From: Trichocoleus desertorum ATA4-8-CV12
GTDB lineage: Bacteria > Cyanobacteriota > Cyanobacteriia > FACHB-46
Assembly (NCBI GenBank): GCA_019358975.1
Contig: JAHHIL010000005.1
Location: 1-64,000 of the forward strand
Direction of reading: 5' to 3'
DNA length: 64,000 bases
A program made the position numbers and the translations under genes. Shown here one piece after another: positions 49,911-63,920 of the stretch (position 1 is the stretch's first letter; each line of letters begins with the position of its first letter). The notes beneath the pieces were generated by a model that was given only the letters and a program-made list of their open reading frames with translations, was not told the DNA's origin and searched no databases.

Positions 49911-51230
49911 ATGGATAGGCATGAATCTGAACGCGAGAAAATTCGCCAGCAATGGGAGACAACTCCCTATCCAGAGCTTCCTCTGGAAACCTCTCCCCAA
50001 GGAGATGCCAATAGTTTATACCTCCATAACTTGGTAACTCCGTTTTACCTGAGAAACCATAGGATTATCGATACAAGAGAGAAACTAATTTTAGATGTGG
50101 GTTGTGGTAGTGGATACACATCACTGACGCTAGCTGAAGCCAATCCAGGAGCCAAAATTGTCGGCATAGATATGTCCGAGAAATCGTTGGATCTAGCACG
50201 CCAGCGATCGCGGTATCACGGGTTTGCAAACTCAGAGTTCTATACTTTAGCGGCTGAGGAACTGCCAAGCTTAAACCTCCAGTTTGACTACATCAACTGT
50301 GATGAGGTCTTGTATTTGCTACCCGACCCAGTGGCTGGACTAAAGGCTATGCAGTCGGTACTTAAACCGAATGGCATCATCCGCGCAAACCTACATAGCT
50401 CTCTACAGCGAGAGTTTTACTTCCGAGCCCAGAAGGTTTTCAAAATGATGGGGTTGATGGACGAAGCACCAAACGAGCTAGAGGTTGAGCTTCTCCGAGA
50501 AATTATGCGATCGCTGAAGAGTGATGTCTATCTCAAAATGCTTGTATGGAAGCCATACTTTGATACAGATGCCGAAAGAGTACGTGTGAACTTTTTGATG
50601 AAAGGGGACAAAGGCTCTACTGTTAAAGAGCTTTTTGCAGCTCTTGAGGCTGCCAATTTAGAGTTTGTCAGCATGGTGAATTGGCGGCACTGGGAATTGA
50701 TGGATCTGTTTCAAGACCCAGCAAACCTGCCAGCGTTCTTGGCCATGAGTTTGCCTGAAGTTCCCTTAGAAGAAAGACTATATCTGTTTGAACTGCTACA
50801 TCCAGTTCACCGCTTGTTAGATTTCTGGTGCGCTCACCCTAATCAAGCAGAGGACTACCTACCTGTTAGTGAGTGGAGTACTCAAGATTGGCAGCAAGCT
50901 CAGGTACACCTACATCCCCAACTTAAAACACAATCAGCTAAAGAGAAGTTGATTGACTGTGTGAACTCCCATCGGCCTTTTGAAATCAGTCAGTTGATTT
51001 CTCTACCTGCGCTCACCTCCATTACTGTCGATAACCAGATGGCAGCAGCTTGCCTGTTACCTCTTTGGGAGGGGCCGCAACCTTTTATGTCCTTGGTTGA
51101 GCGTTGGCAGACTGTACAGCCTGTAAATGCGCTCACCTTAGAACCTGTGAGTGCACAAACAGCCTTTGAGGAAACGAAGCAACTCCTAAGTAGCTTAGAG
51201 GTTTATCTATACGTCCTTTTAGAGTTTTAG
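49911..51230 (+). CDS. SAM-dependent class I methyltransferase with C-terminal domain
   Basis: Residues about 1-200 contain a class I methyltransferase with the SAM motif LILDVGCGSGYTSLTLAEA, an acidic ribose-binding residue in VGIDMS, and YINCDEVLYLLPDP. The following 240 residues have no clear family, and include a region resembling a winged-helix/DNA-free regulatory domain seen in other cyanobacterial methyltransferases (TVKELFAALEAANLEFVSMV). Substrate is unknown. Its position between glycosyltransferases and a pilin suggests a surface-glycan or protein target (inference). Confidence 0.82.
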   Translation: MDRHESEREKIRQQWETTPYPELPLETSPQGDANSLYLHNLVTPFYLRNHRIIDTREKLILDVGCGSGYTSLTLAEANPGAKIVGIDMSEKSLDLARQRSRYHGFANSEFYTLAAEELPSLNLQFDYINCDEVLYLLPDPVAGLKAMQSVLKPNGIIRANLHSSLQREFYFRAQKVFKMMGLMDEAPNELEVELLREIMRSLKSDVYLKMLVWKPYFDTDAERVRVNFLMKGDKGSTVKELFAALEAANLEFVSMVNWRHWELMDLFQDPANLPAFLAMSLPEVPLEERLYLFELLHPVHRLLDFWCAHPNQAEDYLPVSEWSTQDWQQAQVHLHPQLKTQSAKEKLIDCVNSHRPFEISQLISLPALTSITVDNQMAAACLLPLWEGPQPFMSLVERWQTVQPVNALTLEPVSAQTAFEETKQLLSSLEVYLYVLLEF

Positions 51231-51366: not shown

Positions 51367-51900
51367 ATGAAGACTGAATTTCAAGCTAGATTTCTACAGC
51401 ACCTAGCTCAGAAGAAAGAAGATCAAGGTTTCACCCTCATTGAACTTCTCGTTGTTATCATCATCATCGGTATTCTATCTGCGATCGCGCTGCCCTCCTT
51501 CCTAAACCAAGCTAACAAAGCGAAGCAATCTGAAGCTAAGCAATACGTTGGTTCCATGAACCGCGCTCAACAAGCTTACTATCTAGAAAACAGTGAATTT
51601 GGCTCTAGTGTTGACAACTTGGGTCTTGGTATCCAAACCCAAACCACCAACTACAGCTATGTCGTAACGCTTGATAATACTAACAGTGCTGTCACAAACC
51701 TCGGTACTCCACAGCCGACCAAAAAGGCTCTCAAGCACTATAACGGCAGAGTATGGCTAGGAACAGTAGCAACTACCAGTGAAGCAACAACGCTAGCTCT
51801 GCTGTGTGAATCCGTGAAGCCTCTTGCAAGCCAAACAACTAACACTGCTGCATCTAACGGTGCCTGTGCTACCGACTTTAAGCCCCTCGATACCAAGTAA
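51367..51900 (+). CDS. pilA: Type IV pilin-like protein (PilA)
   Basis: This is a prepilin with an unusually long leader of 21 residues ending in Gly (EDQG|FTLIELLVVIIIIG). The mature protein starts with Phe, has Glu5, and a 25-residue hydrophobic helix. The C-terminal half has two Cys, in LLCESVKP and GACATDFKPL, enclosing a disulfide loop typical of major pilins. AAGGAG lies eight bases upstream of the ATG. Type IV pili support motility, DNA uptake and, in filamentous cyanobacteria, polysaccharide export. It is followed 170 bases later by a SPINDLY-type GT41 gene. Confidence 0.92.
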   Translation: MKTEFQARFLQHLAQKKEDQGFTLIELLVVIIIIGILSAIALPSFLNQANKAKQSEAKQYVGSMNRAQQAYYLENSEFGSSVDNLGLGIQTQTTNYSYVVTLDNTNSAVTNLGTPQPTKKALKHYNGRVWLGTVATTSEATTLALLCESVKPLASQTTNTAASNGACATDFKPLDTK

Positions 51901-52069
51901 GCTCCCTTCTCGCATTTCAAAGCTAGGAATGTCTTGATGGCATAGGTAAAATATATACAGCTAGAGTGGGTAGATATCTAACCCGCTCTTTGCTTTTTTA
52001 CAGCTAATTTTACCTGACGATTAAACTAGTGTAGAGCTTTTAGCAATCCTTCATTCCCCCATCAATTGT

Positions 52070-54316
52070 ATGTCCTCTGAGCACACTGCTTCTAGCCTGA
52101 CAAAATTGCAACAGCAAGCTTACCAATCCTTCACTGAGGGTGACTATAGCAAGGCTGTGAGCTTGTATGAAGCAGCGATCGAGGCTGAACCAAGTAACAG
52201 ATTAAACTATTGGTATTTAGGACTAGTATTTCTCCTTCAGGGTAAGGAAGAGGAAGCTCAAACTAGTTGGTTTTTACCTCTAGCCGAGGCAGAACCAGAT
52301 GAGGTGGAAGTTTGGACTAATGAGCTACTACAAGTTCTTAATACAGAAGCTGAACGACAAGCAGCATTAGAAGAATACAAATTGGCTTGGGCCATTCGTC
52401 AGCATATACGAGAAATTACTCCAGCCGACTTTGATAACCTCTTAAAAATTGTTCAGTTGGCAATTGAGCTAGATACATTCACGGGTGAAGATTTAGAAAC
52501 CTTTCAATTAATTAAGCTACTGAAGTCGGAACAGCCTACTAGTCTTGATTTATTTCTACTACTGAGTACGCTTAGTGCCATTTTGGAGTATGACCCGGTC
52601 CATCCTGCAACTTTACAGTTCGCAGAAGCTTGCTTGGTTTTAGCAGGCAAACCTCCCCTAGTAGATGATCCCCAGTCTTTACTTGATGTCTTCATGCCTG
52701 CTGCCATCAAAATTGGGTACTCCTTGGGGCAAGTACAGGTTGCTGCTCGGTTAGCAGAGTTTTGCTTACAAATAGCTCCTACTAATCCTCAGCCTTTAAG
52801 TCACCTGGCTGCCTTTTATCAAAAGATGGGTGATCACGATAAGGGAGTAGAAACCGCAAGGCATTTCTATGATTTGGCTCAATCCCTAGCGAGGCGAATT
52901 CATGGCAGCTATTTAGTCCTAAGAGGTTTACTGAGCGCTGGCGGATCTTGGCAAGAAGCTTACAAGGTTTTTGAAGAACACGAACAGTCTCTCTCTAACC
53001 TGGTTCAGCAACCAGAAGAACTAAATCCTAGTGAAGTCACGAGCCTGTTTACCTCTACGTTCTTTGCTCCTTACTTGAGAGATGATCCCCAAAAGAACCG
53101 TTGGTTTCACAATCAAGTTGCTAACCTTGGACAAATCAATCTCCAACGCTCAGCCCAGCATTTAGTTGAACAGTTTAGCCAGCGTCACAGCACACTATCC
53201 TCTCAGAGAGTTTCTGGTAGACGTTTAAGAATCGGCTATATTTCTGCCTATTTGAAGCGGCATTCTGTAGGCTGGTTAGCTCGTTGGCTATTTCAACATC
53301 ACAACTCCGAACGCTTTCAAATTTATACCTATTTTATCAATCAGCCTAAAGAAGATTTATTTACACAAAATTGGTTTGTTGAGAAAGTACATCAAGCTCA
53401 TTACTTAGGTATAAATTGGTCAGAAATCGCTCAACAGATTCACCAAGATGAGATAGATATATTAATTGACCTAGATAGTATTACGGTTGATATTACTTGT
53501 GCAGTCATGGCCTTGAAACCAGCACCCATACAGGTAACTTGGTTAGGTTGGGACGCCTCAGGAATCCCAGCTGTTGACTACTATATTGCTGATCCTTATG
53601 TCTTACCTGAGGCCGCGCAAACGTACTACTCCGAGAAGATCTGGCGTTTGCCCCAAACATATATTGCAGTTGATGGGTTTGAGATTGGTATACCTACGTT
53701 GCGGAGAGATGCGCTGAGCATTCCTAATGATGCAGTAGTATACCTAAGTGCTCAAAAGGGACATAAGCGTCATCCAGATGCAGTTAGACTGCAAATGAAA
53801 ATTTTAAAGCAAGTACCTAACAGCTACTTCCTGATTAAAGGCTTAGGTGATGAGAAATCCATCAAAAGCTTTTTCAATCAAATTGCGGAAGAAGAGGGCG
53901 TGAATTGCGATCGCTTGCGTTTCTTGCCAGAAGTTGCAGGAGAAGCTATTCATAGAGCCAACTTAGGGATTGCTGATGTTGTCCTAGATACTTATCCCTA
54001 CAATGGGGCTACTACAACTCTAGAAACTCTTTGGATGGGAACTCCTCTAGTTACACGAGTTGGAGAACAGTTTGTTAGTCGGAATAGCTACACCATGATG
54101 ATGAACATTGGTGTAACTGAGGGTATTGCTTGGACTGATGCAGAATACGTGGAGTGGGGAGTACGGCTAGGGAAAGATGCGGCTCTACGCCAACAGATTG
54201 CTTGGAAAATGCGAGCATCACGTCAGACATCTCCGTTATGGAATGCAAAGCAGTTTACCCAAGAAATGGAAAATGCTTACGAACAAATGTGGATGAGGTA
54301 CATTGAAGCAAAGTGA
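52070..54316 (+). CDS. SPINDLY-type O-linked glycosyltransferase (GT41) with TPR
   Basis: This is a 748-residue protein of the O-GlcNAc-transferase/SPINDLY class. It has an N-terminal TPR region (to about residue 290: YQSFTEGDYSKAVSLYEAAI) and a C-terminal GT41 domain from about 380: RIGYISAYLKRHSVGW, APIQVTWLGWDASGIPAVDY, LPQTYIA, and the donor-site segment LDTYPYNGATTTLETLWMG. Such enzymes add sugars to Ser or Thr of proteins. Its placement directly after pilA suggests the pilin as a target (inference). A strong terminator follows. Confidence 0.92.
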   Translation: MSSEHTASSLTKLQQQAYQSFTEGDYSKAVSLYEAAIEAEPSNRLNYWYLGLVFLLQGKEEEAQTSWFLPLAEAEPDEVEVWTNELLQVLNTEAERQAALEEYKLAWAIRQHIREITPADFDNLLKIVQLAIELDTFTGEDLETFQLIKLLKSEQPTSLDLFLLLSTLSAILEYDPVHPATLQFAEACLVLAGKPPLVDDPQSLLDVFMPAAIKIGYSLGQVQVAARLAEFCLQIAPTNPQPLSHLAAFYQKMGDHDKGVETARHFYDLAQSLARRIHGSYLVLRGLLSAGGSWQEAYKVFEEHEQSLSNLVQQPEELNPSEVTSLFTSTFFAPYLRDDPQKNRWFHNQVANLGQINLQRSAQHLVEQFSQRHSTLSSQRVSGRRLRIGYISAYLKRHSVGWLARWLFQHHNSERFQIYTYFINQPKEDLFTQNWFVEKVHQAHYLGINWSEIAQQIHQDEIDILIDLDSITVDITCAVMALKPAPIQVTWLGWDASGIPAVDYYIADPYVLPEAAQTYYSEKIWRLPQTYIAVDGFEIGIPTLRRDALSIPNDAVVYLSAQKGHKRHPDAVRLQMKILKQVPNSYFLIKGLGDEKSIKSFFNQIAEEEGVNCDRLRFLPEVAGEAIHRANLGIADVVLDTYPYNGATTTLETLWMGTPLVTRVGEQFVSRNSYTMMMNIGVTEGIAWTDAEYVEWGVRLGKDAALRQQIAWKMRASRQTSPLWNAKQFTQEMENAYEQMWMRYIEAK

Positions 54317-54341
54317 TTAGAGCTCAGGTGCCATAACTCAG

Positions 54342-54385
54342 AAAGGACTCCAGTATTGTTTTGATGCAAGATGCTGGAGTCCTTT
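54342..54385. terminator. Two-way terminator between GT41 gene and glycan operon
   Basis: AAAGGACTCCAG at 54342-54353 is a perfect 12-bp inverse complement of CTGGAGTCCTTT at 54374-54385 around a 20-base loop, with a short T run. It separates the plus-strand pilin/GT41 pair from the minus-strand operon ending at 54404. Confidence 0.9.
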
Positions 54386-54403
54386 TCGATTAAGTCAACT
54401 TGG

Positions 54404-57400
54404 TCAGGTTAAATGTTGTTCGAGAGTTTCCAGATTTGAGATAGCAAGATTACCTGCTCCAACTGCTGCGATCGCTTGCTGGTCTTCGTGCTCCAGTGGC
54501 AATCGAGATTGAACACGAGTCAACAAGACTTGCCACTGGATGCTACTCAAACCACCTACAAGAGATATTTCCGGACCCTCCGTTACGTCTAATTCTTCTT
54601 CTTGTAAAAGTAACGTCATTGTAAGGCCCGACAGTGCCAGGTTCGCTTCCTCTTCAGAGATGTTGCTCATATTCACAAGCAAAGTGATCTGGCTTTTGTC
54701 GGGACGATAAGCGATCGCCTGAATTACTGCTCCTAGTTCTGAGTAAAGCATTTCTTCTGGCTGACTCCAGTCAGGAAAAATCAGCAAATTAATTTCTCTT
54801 AGATTTAAAGGCGTCAGCGTAGCTGTAATAAGCGCTGAGCTAATCTTGTTTGCCATCGCTGACCAAGAAAACTTTGCAGCTTGTTCTAAGCCCATCTCGA
54901 TTAAAGCCTGACGTACTTCAGGCTTTTGCACCTCACATAGAGCATTGGCTAGAGCAGTCGCATCATTGTCGTCCACATATAAAGCCGCATCCCCTGCAAC
55001 TTCTGGAATTGAGGCATTAGGGCAGGTGATTACTGGACAGCCTGAAGCCATTGCTTCCACAATCGGCAGTCCAAAACCTTCGTATAAGGATGGATAAGCT
55101 AAAGCGATCGCACCTGAATAAGCAACTCTTAGCTCATCGTCATCTAGCCGTAACATATGAACAGTTACACCAGCCGTATAGGTTCTAAAGTCAGTGTCTA
55201 GCAGAGAGTTGCTACCAGTACAAACGATATCAAAACCTTGCTTACTTGGCAGTTGAGCAAATGCCTGGAAAAACAGTAGAGAGTTCTTATAGCCTGCTCC
55301 ACCACCCACTAAAAGAAAGTAGGGTTTAGAAATCCCATACTTCAACTTAAAGGCATTAATTTCTACAGTGCTACTGGGTGAGAAGCTAGGTTGCACTCCA
55401 CAATGGGCAACTGTCACGGCCTCCAGAGGTACATCTGAGTAAAAACTGCATAAGTCATGTGTCGTATTTTCAGAAATTGCAATATAAGCTGAGGCATGTT
55501 GAATAGCCAACTGCTTTTCTCGCCACATTGGGTCTTGAAGATTTGCTCCTAGTACCTCTGGAATCATGTCATAAGCCATGAACACAGAAGGAGTTGCTAT
55601 TGGTGTTGTGTAATAAGTTGATATAAATAGATCAGCGCCTTCCTCGTCACACACCTGCTGTAACATCTGGCGGTCTAACTCAGTTTCGCTATAACTATAA
55701 GCTGGCACAAGTCGATAACGAATATTAGGAATTTTAGGAACCGTACCAGCGCGATCGAGGACAACAATATTCTGTGCAAAGCTCTGTGTAGACCATTCCT
55801 CTAGTACAGATTTCCAGACACGAGCAATCCCAGTTTTATAGAGCTGAAAAAAGACCCCATCGACTACAATGGTTGGCTTACCAGTCTTAGCTTTTGTAAA
55901 TTTCTGAAACCAAACTCCAGTATCATCAATCTTCGTGAGATTAAATTTCTCGTTTTGAAGAGCCTCAAACTCATGTAAAGCTTTTCTACAACCTTCCCAA
56001 TGGCCATAGTCATCTACTTGGATAACTCCGTCAGGCACAATACACTCATAAAGCGTATTGAATATATCCATAGTTGATTCATACCAATCCCCATCAGCAT
56101 GTAGAAGGGCAATATCGTTAATATGTAATTTGTATTCAGGTAAGGTATCTGCGAATAAACCTTTTACAGGAACGACGATATCGGTCACACCAAGTTCTTG
56201 ACAAACTTTGTTTAAATTTTCTTCGATAGGGGCCTTTAAAGTACCTACTCCAAAGCCTGTTAAGTTTGCTGGAATTCCGTCATGCCGATCAACCTCTATA
56301 GGATCTGGCATTCCTTCAAATGTGTCAAAGGCATACAAAAGCCTTGGACGCAAACTGTAACGCTGAATAACAGTAGCTAGCAGTGCTGCTGCCCCTCCTT
56401 TATAGGTACCACATTCAACAAAGCTTCCAGGAATATCTTCCAAGCAAATCTGCTTTGCTAACGAGTAAAGAGAAAACAAGCGGGCTTCACTTAATAGGGT
56501 GTAAGGACGAATTATGCTGAGTATCTGTTGAAACTCATCAGTAGCTAGTTGATGTGAAAACCCACTCACAGCATGCTGCTTCAAGTGCTCTGGCAGAGTC
56601 CAATCAACCTCTGGGTCTGGCTGGTGCATAACTGGTTCAACTTCCCCGCGCCAAGCAACACCCATGATTTGCATAGTTTGGTAAATCATGGTATTCCAGC
56701 CTTTATGCTTCAGGTAGTCTAGACCTTGGCTTACATCAGGGGAAGTTAGATCATGAAATACAATCACTGCATCTTCTTCTGCTAACTGCTCACAAATGAT
56801 CGCATCCTCAAGAGGCCCTGGTGCTTCGTGATTACCATCAATGAAGATAAAAGGCCATTTTCGTTGCAATTGAACAGCTAATTCCTCTACCTTTTGGGGG
56901 CTATAACCTGCTACTAAATTGACTGTATTAAGAACCCCAGCCCGTTCTAATGAGGTGCTAACACTTTCAAAAATCTCAGGCCTACCCAATACAGGATCAA
57001 CCACGTCTAACTCAACGCCTGCAAGCGCTATATGGCAGGCCGACCATCCTAGCCAACAACCAATTTCTAGACCTTTCTTACCTTCAAACTTGAGAGCAGT
57101 ATTGTAAAGAATATGTGCTTCATCTCGGCTAAGAAACCCTATTGTTGGTTGCCGCCTGTCAACATACCAGTTGTGAGGAATATCTCGACGTAAATATGGC
57201 CAAGCACAGGTGCTTGGATTTCCTGCAACCATCTCAGGAAAGGCATAGTCAGGCTGAATGATTGATAGTCCTGGCGAAACGTAATCTCTAATAGGCAAAA
57301 GAGCACCTTCAATAATTTTCAGTGTTTGTTCGAGCATTCTTTCTTCTTGAAACATTACCTCTGCCCGTTGTTTGCAAGCTTGGCCAACAGACATGCGTAG

Positions 57401-58435
57401 AGTTGGGCTTACAGACCAATCTTGAATTGCCTTCACCAATTCTCTTACTGTAGATTGAGAATTAGAATTAGGGTCAGAAACTAGCTTGCCAGTAGAACCT
57501 AATTCTTCAGGAATTCCACTAACAGATGTGGCAATAACTGGTAGTCCTTTAGCCATTGCCTCCATAACAGACAAAGGCATACCTTCTAGCTGTGCAGGAA
57601 GGATAAAAATATCAGCGATATTGAGCCACTCTAAAACATTTGATTGCTGGCCTAAAAACTTTACCTTATCTGCAATTCCAAGTTGCTCTACAACTTGCCT
57701 CAGGTGAGTTTCAAGCTGCGGCTCAAAAATCCCGCCCCCAGCCCATACAAAATAAAGCTGGGGCCAGACAGCAGTTTTCATTAATTGTCTAATAGCTTCT
57801 AGTTGATATTGATATCCCTTACGGCTTTCTATACGAGCAGCTGTAAAACAAACTATAGCGTCATCAGGAATGCTTAAAGTTTCTCGCAGTTCTTTTCTGA
57901 TAGACAGATCGCAGGGGGTAAAATAATGACGAGGTCGTCCATAATGTATGACCTTCCCCTTGCATTTAGGAAGACCAAATAGCTCACGTAGCAAATCCAG
58001 GTTATTATGAGAAACCGCAATAACTGACTTAGCTTTTGCGTAATGCTCTGCCAACTCATCTATGTAGCTAGAAAATTGATTAGCCAAACAAGGTTCAACG
58101 AGACCTTCAACTACAATGTAGGGTATTCCAAGTTGAATACAGACTCGCTTGGTAGAGAAATTTGAAAAAGGATTTGTATTACTACAAATCAATAGGTCAG
58201 GCTTGTATTCTAAAGATGTTAAAACTTCTTTGAACTCTTTTTCTTGGCTACCATTACACCAGATGTGATGAATACCCAAGCTCTTCTGATACACAATCTT
58301 CTCATGATCATTCTGAGGTTGCAAACAGGTAACTCTATATCCTTTTTTGATCAAAAAACATAGAATAGAGTGGTTATATTGAGCAACACCGCCAACACCA
58401 GGATCAGTGGTTGACAATAAGATATGTTTAATCAT
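54404..58435 (-). CDS. GT4 - methyltransferase - TylF-like methyltransferase - GT4 fusion protein
   Basis: A 1343-residue protein from the ATG at 58435 ([16 protein letters not shown]); the TTG at 58474 is less likely. Parts in order: a GT4 glycosyltransferase (about 1-382, EX7E motif at Glu284/Glu292), a class I methyltransferase (about 427-597, [17 protein letters not shown]), a TylF/MycF-type sugar O-methyltransferase (about 627-847, [40 protein letters not shown]), a second GT4 (about 857-1202, Glu1119/Glu1127), and a C-terminal part of about 130 residues without a known family. One chain could therefore add two sugars and methylate them. It is the last gene of the surface-glycan operon. 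Confidence 0.88.
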
Positions 58436-58481
58436 ATTCACAGAAATCTCGTAAAAATTTATAATTTTAGCCAAGGATTTT

Positions 58482-58877
58482 TTAGCGATTGCCAGCTTTT
58501 TTCTTTACTTGGGTCAACAATGCTTTATAAGTAGCATTATTAGGATTAAGCTTAATCAATTTTTTCAGAGGCTCCTGAGCGCCCTCTAAGTTACCCCTTT
58601 TTATACGTATTTGCACTAAGCTCTCTAAAGCTACCTGATTTTCTGGTTCTCGTTGCAGTACTAGCTCATATCCTTTTTCCTCCATCATTGGCTGTGATTG
58701 TACTATTGTAGAACTCATTTTTGGTTGGGTGATCTGACGGAAGGTATCAGCAAAGAAACCTCCCACTGCAAATACTGTTGACCCTAAAAACAGCCCAGTA
58801 GAGACGAATGCTATCAATCGTTGTTTACGCTTGATTTGAGTTTGGCGTAGCTCTACATAATTATTAAAACTGCTCAT
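58482..58877 (-). CDS. Small membrane-anchored TPR-like protein
   Basis: The ATG at 58877 gives 131 residues: a basic start (IKRKQRLIAF), one membrane helix (FVSTGLFLGSTVFAVGGFF, about 24-44), and a C-terminal part with about two TPR-like helices (YELVLQREPENQVALESLVQ, and AQEPLKKLIKLNPNNATYKA). It lies between the O-antigen ligase and the GT4 fusion in a tight minus-strand operon, so it may scaffold the glycan enzymes at the membrane (inference). A GTG at 58919 would add 14 residues. Confidence 0.72.
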   Translation of the reverse strand: MSSFNNYVELRQTQIKRKQRLIAFVSTGLFLGSTVFAVGGFFADTFRQITQPKMSSTIVQSQPMMEEKGYELVLQREPENQVALESLVQIRIKRGNLEGAQEPLKKLIKLNPNNATYKALLTQVKKKAGNR

Positions 58878-58952
58878 GCTGAATTCCAGTTTGTGTAACT
58901 TCAGTGAAAGGCTCTTCACTCTTTAGATTACCCACTCTAGTCTTGAAGTCTT

Positions 58953-61523
58953 TCAAGTTTTTTGAATTAAAGCATCACGCCATGCTTGCAAAACTAAATC
59001 CCAATCAGAAAAATAGAGAGGTGAGAACAAAATCTCAGGTAATAGTTCAGTTACTACAACACTGTCTGCAACAGTAAGGAAATCGACAGGAGCAGAACCA
59101 TCAATATGGCGACTGAGAACTCCGAATCCAGTACGGGTGCGACGATATTGACGACTCGGTGCATTCCGTTTCAGCCATTCATCAAAGGATGATGAACGAT
59201 TCATGCTTGTGACTAGAGCTTCCCAAAGTTCGGGGGGTAGGCTGTTTTGCTCTGCTTGTATCCATGCTTCTCGCAAAAGAGATTGGCGTTGACCAGGGTT
59301 GAGCCAAGCTGCGATCGCTAATTTACCTGGTGAATTAGGTAAGGCTTGTATTTGTGGCTCTACATTTTTGCCTTCTGCAAGTTGTAGGATGACTTGGCTT
59401 AAGGGAGTACCGTGACTATCCCAGTCTTTATGCGCTGCTTCGAAATCACCTCGCCACCAGTTCACCCCACCCCGCAGTTGGTAGCAGTAGGTACTAATTT
59501 GTTCCGGCTGAGCAGGAGCCTGTAATAGCTCTGTACATTTTGCTGCAACACGATCCAGCATGGGTGTGTAGAGAGGCTGGATGGTAGGCGCTCGCCAAAC
59601 AGGGCTGGTAATGAGCAGCGGATCACGTAATGCTTCCAAAGCTACTGCTTCTGTCGCCAAATCGACTTTACCTTGCGCTAATAAGCTAAGCCCCAACCCA
59701 TAAAACACCCCTCTCTTAGCAGGAACTAGCTGAGCAGAGCGAATAAACTCTTGGGTTGCAGCTTGAGGATTTTGATTTAATAAGAGCCAAGCTAGATTGG
59801 TATGCCCAAATTCTTGGTAGGGAGAGGCTTGGATGCCTTTCTGTAACCAAGTAATGCCATCGGCCTGAAGTTGGCTTTGTTGTTGAGGATCGTTAGTTTG
59901 CAAACTCAGATTCCCCAAGTTCCAACCTAGCTGGTAAGGATAATATGGCTCCCAAGGCGCTAACTGAGCAGCTTGGCTGAGGCGTTGCACAAACCCAGGG
60001 ATGTTTTCTCGGCTTAGAGCAATAAAACCCTGACTCGATAATTGCCAAGCTCGATGAATCGGAACTAGCCAGACGCTGACCACGAGCAGCAGGCCTAACC
60101 CAGCATAAGTTACGCCTTGGGCCGCTCGTCCTGTAATTGAAAATTTAGGTAGGGCGCTCACTGAAGTTTCGGAAAAAGTCTCGCGAAATACAGCGGCAAG
60201 GATAGCGATGAAGAGAACTAAAGTGCCACCGATGCAAACATTATCGAGCTGGTAATCGGTCAAGCTACTGATCCCATAACCTAAAAGACCTGCCAATATA
60301 CTCCAAACAAGAATTTGGTCTGTATGTTGACGGGAAACGGGCTGAGCTGAGATTTTACTAAGCCAGCGAATGCTTAAGTAGGTGAGGAGAGCGATCGCAA
60401 TTACACTCGTCCCAATTCCCCACAAACCTAGTTCAGCCCAAATTTGCACTGGAGTACTGTGAAGTTGGTAGGTTAGTTCTGCTTCTCGGCCTGCCCATCC
60501 AGGGCGATATTGCTGATAGACAATCGGAACACTACCAGGCCCAGCCCCGAAGACTGGATGCGCGATTCCCATCTGCCAACCTGTTACAGCAGTAATCATC
60601 CGGTAGGCAAAGTCGCCGCTTAGTTGACCGCTGAGTATGGCAGTAATTGCTGTTTTAAGGCGATCGTTTGTGAGTACTGACAGGCTCAAAAAAGCCAGCA
60701 TGAAAAGGCTTCCTAAGCCTAGCCAAAGACGTGGCAGAGAGCTGCGGAATAGTAGTAGAACAAACCCGACGATACAAAGCGCTGCGAGTCCTAACCAGCC
60801 CCCCCGCGAACCCGTGGTGTAAAGAGCAATCAACCCCAGTCCTACTCCTGTCAGCCAAAGCCGGCGTTGCTTTCCAGTTTGCAGAATACTCAGCGCCAGG
60901 AGCAAAGGGAGAGCTAAGAGGAGATAGCCTGCTACGTAGTTGGGATGACCGAGCGGTGCCCAATTGCGTAACTCTAACGTTGAGAGGTTTAGTGAAAGAT
61001 TAACACCTGACTGGCGTAGGGCTTGCAACCGATCCAGTTCTGGCAAGATCGTTTGGGTTAACCACAAACCAAGGCTCACGACAATAAAGGCTAGATTTAA
61101 GTACCCTTGCCCCACTAGTAGGTTGTAGCGATCGCGGGAAGTCAGAACTTTATAGTTGAGCGCATACAAGCCAGCCAGAAAACATAAAGTGGCCCAAGCG
61201 TACCAACGAGCTTGCATAGGAAACTCAGCGACAGCAGCTGAAGTAATCAGGCCAATAGCAGTAAGACCCGCGATCGCATCAAAGCCGTTACCCAGCCAGA
61301 GCCATTCCTGCCGACGCCATACCATCCACAAAAGCCATAAAGGTAGGCAAGCTAAACCTACTTGCCAGAGAAATACCCAGGGCCATGAAACAACTAAGGT
61401 ATTGCTGTCAGGAAGCAGTGTGAAGAGTATATAGAAACAGGTGACTAACAATCCTAAAAGCGAGCCTTTGGGATTGGAAGTTGCGGGTGGGGCTTTTTTA
61501 ATTAGAGGGCGATCGCCAGTCAT
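58953..61523 (-). CDS. O-antigen ligase (Wzy/WaaL-like) with C-terminal TPR region
   Basis: The first 490 or so residues have 10 to 12 hydrophobic helices with the PF04932-type region GSRGGWLGLAALCIVGFVLL, and the following motif PVFGAGPGSV and QLHSTPVQIWAELGLWG, which is the usual large periplasmic loop end. The last 370 residues are soluble, with TPR-like repeats (EFGHTNLAWLLLNQNPQAA). Such proteins polymerise or ligate surface polysaccharide at the outer face of the inner membrane. The next gene starts 75 bases downstream; the upstream gene ends 17 bases before. Confidence 0.87.
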   Translation of the reverse strand: MTGDRPLIKKAPPATSNPKGSLLGLLVTCFYILFTLLPDSNTLVVSWPWVFLWQVGLACLPLWLLWMVWRRQEWLWLGNGFDAIAGLTAIGLITSAAVAEFPMQARWYAWATLCFLAGLYALNYKVLTSRDRYNLLVGQGYLNLAFIVVSLGLWLTQTILPELDRLQALRQSGVNLSLNLSTLELRNWAPLGHPNYVAGYLLLALPLLLALSILQTGKQRRLWLTGVGLGLIALYTTGSRGGWLGLAALCIVGFVLLLFRSSLPRLWLGLGSLFMLAFLSLSVLTNDRLKTAITAILSGQLSGDFAYRMITAVTGWQMGIAHPVFGAGPGSVPIVYQQYRPGWAGREAELTYQLHSTPVQIWAELGLWGIGTSVIAIALLTYLSIRWLSKISAQPVSRQHTDQILVWSILAGLLGYGISSLTDYQLDNVCIGGTLVLFIAILAAVFRETFSETSVSALPKFSITGRAAQGVTYAGLGLLLVVSVWLVPIHRAWQLSSQGFIALSRENIPGFVQRLSQAAQLAPWEPYYPYQLGWNLGNLSLQTNDPQQQSQLQADGITWLQKGIQASPYQEFGHTNLAWLLLNQNPQAATQEFIRSAQLVPAKRGVFYGLGLSLLAQGKVDLATEAVALEALRDPLLITSPVWRAPTIQPLYTPMLDRVAAKCTELLQAPAQPEQISTYCYQLRGGVNWWRGDFEAAHKDWDSHGTPLSQVILQLAEGKNVEPQIQALPNSPGKLAIAAWLNPGQRQSLLREAWIQAEQNSLPPELWEALVTSMNRSSSFDEWLKRNAPSRQYRRTRTGFGVLSRHIDGSAPVDFLTVADSVVVTELLPEILFSPLYFSDWDLVLQAWRDALIQKT

Positions 61524-61540
61524 GGGCTTGTATGGAGAGT

Positions 61541-63061
61541 TTAGTAGGCACCTTTACCAAACAAAACGATGCGGCAAGTTTCTACCAAAATATCAAGATC
61601 GAGATTGAGCGACCAGTTGTCAATGTAGTAAAGGTCTAGGCGGACTGCATCACTAAAATCGGCAATATCAGAGCGGCCCGAAACCTGCCATAACCCTGTA
61701 ATCCCAGGCAGAACTTGATGGCGAATGTGGTGCCAGGTGTCAAAGCGCTCCACATCTCGGAGGGGCAAAGGACGAGGGCCAACCAGGCTCATCTGGCCTA
61801 GCAGAACATTAAATAGTTGGGGCAACTCATCAATACTAGTAGATCTCAGGAAACGACCCAGGCGAGTAATTCGAGGGTCATGTCTAATCTTGAACATGAC
61901 TCCGCCTTTGATCTCATTACAAGCTTCCAACTGAGCCTGTAACGCTTCGGCTTCTGTCACCATTGTGCGGAATTTCCACATATGAAAGACTTTGCCATGC
62001 AACCCCATTCGTTCTTGCCGGAAAAAGATCGGGCCTGGAGAAGACAACTTGATCGCGATCGCCACAGCCAAAAAGAGAGGCGACAGCAGAATCACACCAA
62101 CTAAAGCCCCGAAGACATCCATCCAACGTTTTAAGCTATACTCCAAACTGCTTAAGAAACGCGGCTCTACCCGCAGAGTTGGTAAACCAGCAAAGATCTC
62201 AGGCAGACCGCGACGATGCAACATATCTACACTGGAAGGTAGCAAGCGCAAAGTAATGCCCTGACGACGTAGCTGCCAATAAAGCGCTGAGGCCAGTGCA
62301 GTGTTGGGTAAGTTCTCGACTAAAACCTCTTTGGCCTTGGATGCCAAAATGGTTTGTAGAGTAGTCGGAGCATGAGCGGTGGTTGCTAGTGCTGCGCCAA
62401 CGACTTGATAACGTGAGGCATCCTGACCCTTGAAATTTAAACGCTGTTCTAATACATGGGCCAAAGTTGACAAGCGATCGCCTGGGGCAATCAAAAAAAC
62501 AGGAATCGGAGACTGGCTTTGCTCAAACTGACGCAAAATTAAGGTTGTTAACAGCCGAAATCCTATTACTAACCCGACACTACTCAACCAGGCTGTAAAG
62601 AATAGCGATCGCGGTGGGTCTAGCTTAGGGTCATAAAAATACCCCATCACTAAGGAGAGCGAATAAACCATGCTCACCAACTTGCCTGCCCGGAGGTAGT
62701 TCTTCCATTGCGTTGCCGAGGAGTACAACCCCCCGTAAGCAAAAAACAGCAACGTCGCAGCAGCAAATAGCCAAAATAGACTTGGCAGACCCAACCAGCT
62801 CCACCAGTTCAGCTCCGGTGGTAAAGGTGAATAAAATTGATTCAAATGTGCCGCAATCTGCCAAGCCATTCCCAACGCTAAGACGTCGCTGAGCAGTAGT
62901 GCTAGCATTCGATACCCTTGCCAACCGCGAAGCTGTAACAAGTTCAACTTGCCAGGAGCACGAATATCTAGCTTGGAATTGTTGGAAGCTCTGCCAGAAA
63001 ACTCAATCATTGCAGTATAAGCAGATTGCGGAGATGCAGTAGGAATTGCTTCGGCTATCAC
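61541..63061 (-). CDS. Polyprenyl glycosylphosphotransferase (WcaJ-type)
   Basis: This enzyme transfers a sugar-1-phosphate to undecaprenyl phosphate, the first step of exopolysaccharide assembly. Four N-terminal helices precede a nucleotide-binding-like middle part, then the family C-domain: [61 protein letters not shown] (given here split from its PRP continuation) and [14 protein letters not shown]. The start may be the GTG at 63061 or the ATG at 63010; neither has a clear ribosome-binding site. It lies 82 bases after the WecG-type gene in the same operon. Confidence 0.93.
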
Positions 63062-63143
63062 TATTTTTGAAGAAATGATGAAGCAGCAACTTCATTCAGT
63101 ATTCCGCAAAATCCAAACAAACCTGACAGAACCCAAAATTGAA

Positions 63144-63920
63144 TTATTTGAGTCGCAGCCAGTGACGTAACAACTGCCAACCAAACAAAATGACAAAGGC
63201 AGGATTATTGATGCAATAACGCTGCCACAAGCGCCTTGGCTCCTGTGAAAAACGATATAACCACTCCAACCCTAGTTTCATCATCCACCGGGGGGCTTGA
63301 ACCACTTCACCACTGTGGAAACTAAAAGCTGCTCCCACACCAATCATCACAGCAGCAACTTTGCCTTGCTGCCGAGCCATCCATTCTTCTTGCTTGGGAC
63401 AGCCTAACCCCACAAAAACCACAGATGCGCCAGAGTCATTAATCCGCTGCACATCTGACTCCTCCTCTTTTAGAGTCAGAGACCTAAAAGGGGGCGCATA
63501 GCTATCTGCGATCGCCAAATCCGGAAATTTCTGAGTCAGATTGTGCTTTAGCTTCTCTAGCATTGACTCGGTGCCACCATATAAATAGATAGGCATTTCT
63601 AACTGAGCTGCGCGATCGCACCAAGCCAGCATTAAATCTGGCCCATACACTCTGGTTTGGTCTTTGATTCCCAACAGTCGCAAGGCCCAGACAAGCGGCA
63701 TGCCATCCGGACTGACCAGAGCCGCTTGATTAATGATTTGTTGGTACTGCCGCTGCCAATAAGCCGTCATCACCACATGAACATTGGCAGCGACGATGTA
63801 GCAGGAGTTTCGGGCCTCAGCCCAAATTTGGATGCGATCGCAGGCATCAATATAGCTCGTCGCATAAACAGGAGTTAAGATGACAGTGACAACAGGACAT
63901 TCCTGATTTGCTTTGCTCAT
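63144..63920 (-). CDS. WecG/TagA/CpsF-family glycosyltransferase
   Basis: GT26 family enzymes add an N-acetylmannosaminuronate or similar sugar to lipid-linked precursors. Recognisable motifs are ANVHVVMTAYW, LVSPDGMPLVWALRLLG, VFVGLGCPKQEEWMARQ and APRWMMKLGLEWLYRF with QEPRRLW. Length of 258 residues is normal. AGGAGG precedes the ATG by three bases. It is the first complete gene of the minus-strand operon, which continues with the polyprenyl sugar-phosphate transferase. Confidence 0.92.
   Translation of the reverse strand: MSKANQECPVVTVILTPVYATSYIDACDRIQIWAEARNSCYIVAANVHVVMTAYWQRQYQQIINQAALVSPDGMPLVWALRLLGIKDQTRVYGPDLMLAWCDRAAQLEMPIYLYGGTESMLEKLKHNLTQKFPDLAIADSYAPPFRSLTLKEEESDVQRINDSGASVVFVGLGCPKQEEWMARQQGKVAAVMIGVGAAFSFHSGEVVQAPRWMMKLGLEWLYRFSQEPRRLWQRYCINNPAFVILFGWQLLRHWLRLK

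Follow-up and report, generated by a model that had tools for sequence, protein, structure and literature searches.

A modular glycosyltransferase-methyltransferase gene in a variable slot beside pilA and ogt of cyanobacteria, proposed to act in pilin glycosylation

The window, that is, the whole 64,000-nucleotide stretch of DNA analyzed here, contains on its minus strand an open frame that is uninterrupted over positions 54404-58474 if a TTG start is assumed. The ATG at position 58435 agrees with the start of the homologues and yields a protein of 1343 amino acids, each domain of which was submitted to a separate Pfam search. The gene lies beside the type IV pilin gene pilA and an ogt-type gene, in a position referred to below as the slot. 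The modules of the protein and its immediate neighbors are as follows.

49911-51230, plus strand: methyltransferase of 439 amino acids, a frequent partner of the pilin and Ogt genes (Methyltransf_31, E=6.5e-28)
51367-51900, plus strand: PilA-type type IV pilin (Pilin_GH, E=8.2e-29; N_methyl, E=2.7e-9)
52070-54316, plus strand: OgtA-like protein with TPR and GT41 domains, the convergent neighbor (Glyco_transf_41, E=1.2e-53)
54407-54814, minus strand: C-terminal tail domain absent from Pfam, residues 1208-1343
54815-55888, minus strand: C-terminal GT4 module (GT4-C), the constant module of the slot, residues 850-1207 (Glyco_trans_1_4, E=2.2e-18)
55898-56545, minus strand: TylF/NovP-type sugar O-methyltransferase, residues 631-846 (TylF, E=3.6e-43)
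56546-57295, minus strand: class I methyltransferase of the Methyltransf_24 type (MTase), residues 381-630 (Pfam, E=7.9e-12)
57296-58435, minus strand: N-terminal GT4 module (GT4-N), residues 1-380 (Glycos_transf_1, E=8.9e-30)
58482-58919, minus strand: TPRm, a small TPR protein that also has a hydrophobic segment, the constant upstream flank (TPR_19, E=5.9e-7)

Thus, the product of 54404-58435 comprises GT4, a Methyltransf_24-type methyltransferase, a TylF-type O-methyltransferase, a second GT4, and a C-terminal tail. The four enzymatic parts had been named in the sequence-only reading, and Pfam and conserved catalytic residues support all of them; the chain described there was incomplete, as the fifth part, the tail of 136 amino acids, had been missed. 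A polysaccharide cluster on the same strand occupies positions 58953-63920 and continues beyond the window on the same contig (G000:C5, L120:887-11348). It encodes Wzm, Wzt with a Wzt_C domain, several methyltransferases, glycosyltransferases, a sugar dehydratase-like protein, a DegT aminotransferase, WecG, a phosphoglycosyltransferase, and a Wzy/ligase-like protein with a long C-terminal part.

All four catalytic modules are predicted to be intact, judging from residue conservation. Both GT4 modules contain a Glycos_transf_1-type domain with the E-x7-E motif. In GT4-N, K206, E284, and E292 are present in 18/18 relatives and R201 in 17/18, and in GT4-C K1050, E1119, and E1127 are kept in 80/80. 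The MTase module scores 46.4 bits with Methyltransf_24 against a Pfam cut-off of 26.3; its SAM-binding motif (G459, D480) is conserved, and these two residues together with D533, H536, and H561 are invariant in 32/32 sequences. Its best relative of solved structure is 6g7d, annotated "Methyltransferase domain protein" (E=1.4e-4), probably a sugar 1-O-methyltransferase of the mycobacterial methylmannose polysaccharide. In the TylF module, D781, D808, and D809 are invariant (29/29 sequences) and align with the DGD and VDDY motifs of NovP; the closest solved structures are NovP itself (2wk1, E=7e-21) and the mycinamicin III 3''-O-methyltransferase (4x7v, E=5.5e-19). Degenerate domains are ruled out by the catalytic and metal residues kept in essentially all relatives, so the loss of such residues from most domains, named earlier as a possible counterargument, was not what we found. 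In the AlphaFold2 model of residues 1-850 (mean pLDDT 85.0, pTM 0.65) the domains are good and the confidence of the overall packing is moderate; for GT4-N in this model, the closest of the matching GT-B structures is 7mi0 (E=4.6e-21). The protein has no predicted membrane segment (maximum 19-residue hydropathy 1.43) and appears to be cytosolic.

The tail has no Pfam match, with just scattered chance-level ones across its members, and a sequence search of the PDB gave no match. Its AlphaFold2 model (pLDDT 85.8, pTM 0.80) has an alpha/beta fold, which Foldseek matched weakly to Asp1 (5vaf) and to further GT-B folds, the best at E=2.4e-3; Asp1 is not known to be catalytic. The tail was found in 66 of the 291 cyanobacterial genomes sampled, is single-copy in the source genome, and stands at the end of most slot proteins. 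Some TPR-GT41 proteins of roughly 720 amino acids (L065:14265-16448, L080:9661-11814, and others) carry it close to their N-terminus, and it is thus common to slot proteins and Ogt-like proteins. We propose that it is a docking domain.

A search of bacterial and archaeal genomes with the 1343-residue protein returned 80 loci, all cyanobacterial judging by the titles of their records. The earlier suggestion that the same domain order be sought elsewhere proved fruitful: the five-part order GT4-MTase-TylF-GT4-tail is present in four other loci (L038, L039, L040, and L041), and L044 has it with an inserted hexapeptide acyltransferase. A chance or assembly fusion is ruled out by the unbroken frame and by the recurrence of this order in independent genomes. 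Other relatives depart from it by a CmcI-type methyltransferase with TPR (L045), a methyltransferase of the DUF1698/Methyltransf_9 type (L047), loss of TylF (L046), replacement of the second GT4 by GT41 (L048, L123), or an additional methyltransferase and GT4 plus a terminal GT41 (L043). Of the 291 genomes sampled from the class, 6 carry an essentially full-length GT4-MTase-TylF block.

The MTase-TylF pair also exists on its own in proteins of 480-513 amino acids (L049, L050, L052) and behind a domain of about 320 residues (L053, L055-L058), for which the one example tested, L055 from a Microcoleus vaginatus genome, had no Pfam match. Six of these proteins (L049, L050, L052, L053, L055, and L057) were not seen beside pilA, and convergent open frames of about 2600 amino acids adjoin those of L053, L055, and L057 (about 9.7-17.5 kb). 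In L051:1274-4742 the slot protein is split into three frames (GT4-MTase, the start of TylF, and TylF-tail); this may be a decaying copy or a sequencing error. The genomes are partly draft, and some other frame splits may also be sequencing errors. The source genome contains a second array of giant GT4/TPR/GT41 proteins (G000:C1:272700-282000; L119, L180, L181) with frames of 1977, 754, and 783 amino acids. Its GT4, which lacks the tail domain, is 59% identical to GT4-C of the window and is found again in the two other genomes of the genus.

The surroundings of the gene were compared over 70 related slot genes. Because these loci were chosen by similarity to the protein of the window, the survey leans to its relatives, and cassettes without its GT4-tail would be missed; neighboring genes played no part in the choice. 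Of the 66 slots with flank, 55 have the TPRm gene upstream in the same orientation, and family clustering places TPRm in 59 loci. Among the 57 slots with enough flank on the other side, a convergent GT41 gene lies downstream in 47 (it is missing from 10), a type IV pilin gene on the opposite strand in 46, and a methyltransferase of the 439-residue type accompanies the pilin-Ogt side in 24. The pair pilA-ogt flanks the slot across many genera. In the window itself the Ogt-type GT41 gene is adjacent to the pilin gene, whose product has the expected N-methylation motif; six weaker matches occur in the same genome.

Within these constant flanks, GT4-C and the tail are also constant, and the part in front of them is swapped among slot loci. 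Among 68 slot proteins we distinguished 20 types of N-terminal part, including FkbM, Methyltransf_23/24, and GT2 domains, plus a bare form; most relatives keep the GT4-tail only, and in others the N-terminal modules are reshuffled. The breakpoints are sharp. Two Rhizonema loci, L039 and L078, are 89% identical in nucleotide sequence from the start of GT4-C onward and have no match before it, and a breakpoint at the start of the second GT4 is also observed in the pairs L054/L117 and L044/L105. The difference extends to nearly the entire slot gene in L047/L073 and L045/L059, whose flanks are about 88-90% identical. In the genus of the window, one genome (G001) has a bare GT4-tail protein of 499 amino acids and the other (G002) a form of 833 amino acids; here the polysaccharide proteins encoded in the flanks share 81-94% identity, and from the GT4 boundary onward the DNA is again similar to that of the window.

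On the Ogt tree the nine carriers of the GT4-N cassette require nine changes, eight of them forced by the starred branches; with shuffled labels the mean is 8.4-8.5, so the observed number is not fewer. The nine changes for nine carriers, together with the nucleotide breakpoints, rule out purely vertical inheritance of the cassette. Transfer over long distances would make the identities of GT4-N, MTase, and TylF independent of that of Ogt; the correlations with Ogt were 0.47-0.68, and therefore we claim only exchange at the slot and do not name a donor. Over 52000-60000, where the Ogt-like and slot genes lie, the GC content is 0.42-0.44, versus about 0.45-0.52 in the rest of the window, which is compatible with foreign origin.

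The explanation best supported by these data is a cyanobacterial locus for the glycosylation of type IV pilin, with the slot gene as its variable part; this gene would encode a modular, recombination-swapped enzyme that extends and O-methylates the pilin glycan, and we assign this reading a probability of roughly 0.6. Since the gene occupies a fixed place on the pilin side where relatives carry differing enzyme sets, the protein probably builds a variable sugar coat on pili. In the proposed scheme, the OgtA-like GT41 neighbor would attach the first sugar to PilA or prime the glycan. The constant GT4-tail part of the cytosolic protein would then extend it, with the tail docking, and the swappable front (GT4, MTase, and the TylF-type methyltransferase) would add one more sugar and two O-methyl groups. 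Species could alter the pilus glycan by in-frame exchange of the front cassette, leaving the flanks, GT4, and tail unchanged. In a broader formulation, to which we give about even odds, filamentous cyanobacteria have a "glycan-typing" slot next to pilA-ogt. Recombination would swap its front modules (GT4, GT2, several methyltransferase families, acyltransferase, and GT41) in frame, yielding many species- or strain-specific pilus glycans, and the unnamed docking domain would serve as the common anchor.

The earlier interpretation of the protein as an assembly enzyme is well supported as far as the addition and methylation of sugars are concerned. The order of modules in the chain, from which that interpretation had read the order of reactions, is a poor guide to it, because the N-terminal modules change places among relatives, the majority of which retain just the GT4-tail. 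The methylated repeat of a surface glycan proposed there has partial support: none of our results shows a repeating polymer, and the linkage to the Ogt-PilA locus points to a protein-linked glycan on pilin. A counterpoint is that the folded part of pilin is periplasmic and the enzymes would be cytosolic, so that pilin would have to be modified ahead of its export or by way of a lipid-linked route. The MTase-TylF proteins not seen beside pilA, the 10 slots lacking a convergent GT41 gene, the adjoining Wzm/Wzt cluster, and the leaning of the survey to relatives of this protein also count against the pilin reading.

The strongest competing reading has the protein assemble a surface polysaccharide (O-antigen, sheath, or exopolysaccharide) with methylated sugars, together with the products of the upstream genes, and takes the position beside pilA-ogt to be incidental. 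It has to be considered because the gene of the window adjoins the Wzm, Wzt, phosphoglycosyltransferase, and ligase-like cluster, in which WecG, the phosphoglycosyltransferase, and the Wzy/ligase-like gene are followed on the same strand by those for glycosyltransferases, methyltransferases, the dehydratase-like protein, DegT, Wzt, and Wzm. A precedent is WsaE in the ABC-dependent cluster of an S-layer glycan (PMC2943079). However, close homologues of WecG, the phosphoglycosyltransferase, and WzyC flank the slot only in the genus of the window, pilA-ogt stands beside it in many genera, and the genes that recur further upstream in other genomes (kinase, phosphatase, Uma2, and MlaD) are not glycan-related. 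We consider this rival somewhat unlikely.

In a second alternative the methyltransferases are chain terminators, placing at the non-reducing end a cap that licenses export by Wzm/Wzt. Methyl caps act so in the WbdD and WsaE systems (PMC11231755, PMC2943079), and the gene for a Wzt with a C-terminal Wzt_C domain lies at a distance of about 15 kb. The known terminators, however, have a coiled-coil ruler between terminator and polymerase (PMC11231755), whereas here the modules abut with short linkers and no helix in the model of residues 1-850 exceeds 18 residues; the distribution of flanking genes argues against termination in the same way as above. As there is no room for a ruler, this alternative is very unlikely. 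A purely structural role for the tail or for either or both GT4 domains, in what would mainly be a methyltransferase scaffold, is highly improbable. In its favor, the tail weakly matches one half of a GT-B fold and, like Asp1, lacks known catalytic residues; against it, the catalytic glutamates of the GT4 modules are kept in 18/18 and 80/80 relatives.

Motility, phototaxis, DNA uptake, and biofilm control in cyanobacteria depend on pili, whose glycosylation is known to be important. To our knowledge, few enzymes of cyanobacterial pilus glycosylation have been assigned beyond Ogt. If the pilin reading is correct, the diversification of pilus glycans would be explained by a gene beside pilA whose sugar-adding and methylating modules are swapped. 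One could then test whether the diversity helps in phage escape or in self-recognition, and glycan engineering would gain a natural collection of domain fusions.

Several known systems are partly similar. WsaE of Geobacillus stearothermophilus combines a methyltransferase and two rhamnosyltransferases in one protein (PMC2943079). The likeness, a sugar O-methyltransferase and two glycosyltransferase domains in a single protein of a surface-glycan system, is conceptual, since the domain order sets the two apart: WsaE has one N-terminal methyltransferase followed by the glycosyltransferase domains and belongs to an S-layer glycan cluster with an ABC transporter, whereas the protein of the window has two methyltransferases between two GT4 modules, a new tail domain, and a pilA-ogt neighborhood. 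The O-antigen enzymes of Klebsiella pneumoniae vary in the distribution of their modules (PMC11231755); O7 ORF6, O12 WbbB, and WbdD-WbdA terminate O-antigen chains and have a coiled-coil ruler, and no extended coiled coil was found between the corresponding modules here, judging from the module boundaries and the helices in the model of residues 1-850. On the features tested, the 1343-residue protein would work similarly to WsaE and the Klebsiella enzymes and is a member of neither group. In the Ogt/OgtA-PilA systems of Nostoc punctiforme and Synechococcus elongatus the ogt gene is adjacent to pilA (PMC12288463), as in the window; the literature searched on these systems contains no description of an adjacent modular glycosyltransferase/methyltransferase gene. 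The pilA2-sll1696 locus beside pilA1 of Synechocystis has been linked to PilA1 glycosylation (PMC8546353). TfpO and TfpW of Pseudomonas aeruginosa are strain-group-specific, pilin-associated glycosylation genes, and the glycosylation is implicated in defense against pilus phages (PMC11841053); their proteins are unrelated and have one function each, whereas the slot varies by in-frame exchange of modules within one gene. The earlier statement that no described enzyme with this set of domains was known agrees with our comparison, in which WsaE and others have a related layout and none the same set, and neither the architecture nor the variable slot is described in the literature searched, most subscription journals being outside its scope. 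The protein is a new variant within the modular glycosyltransferase/methyltransferase proteins, and its pilin-linked slot is the notable part.
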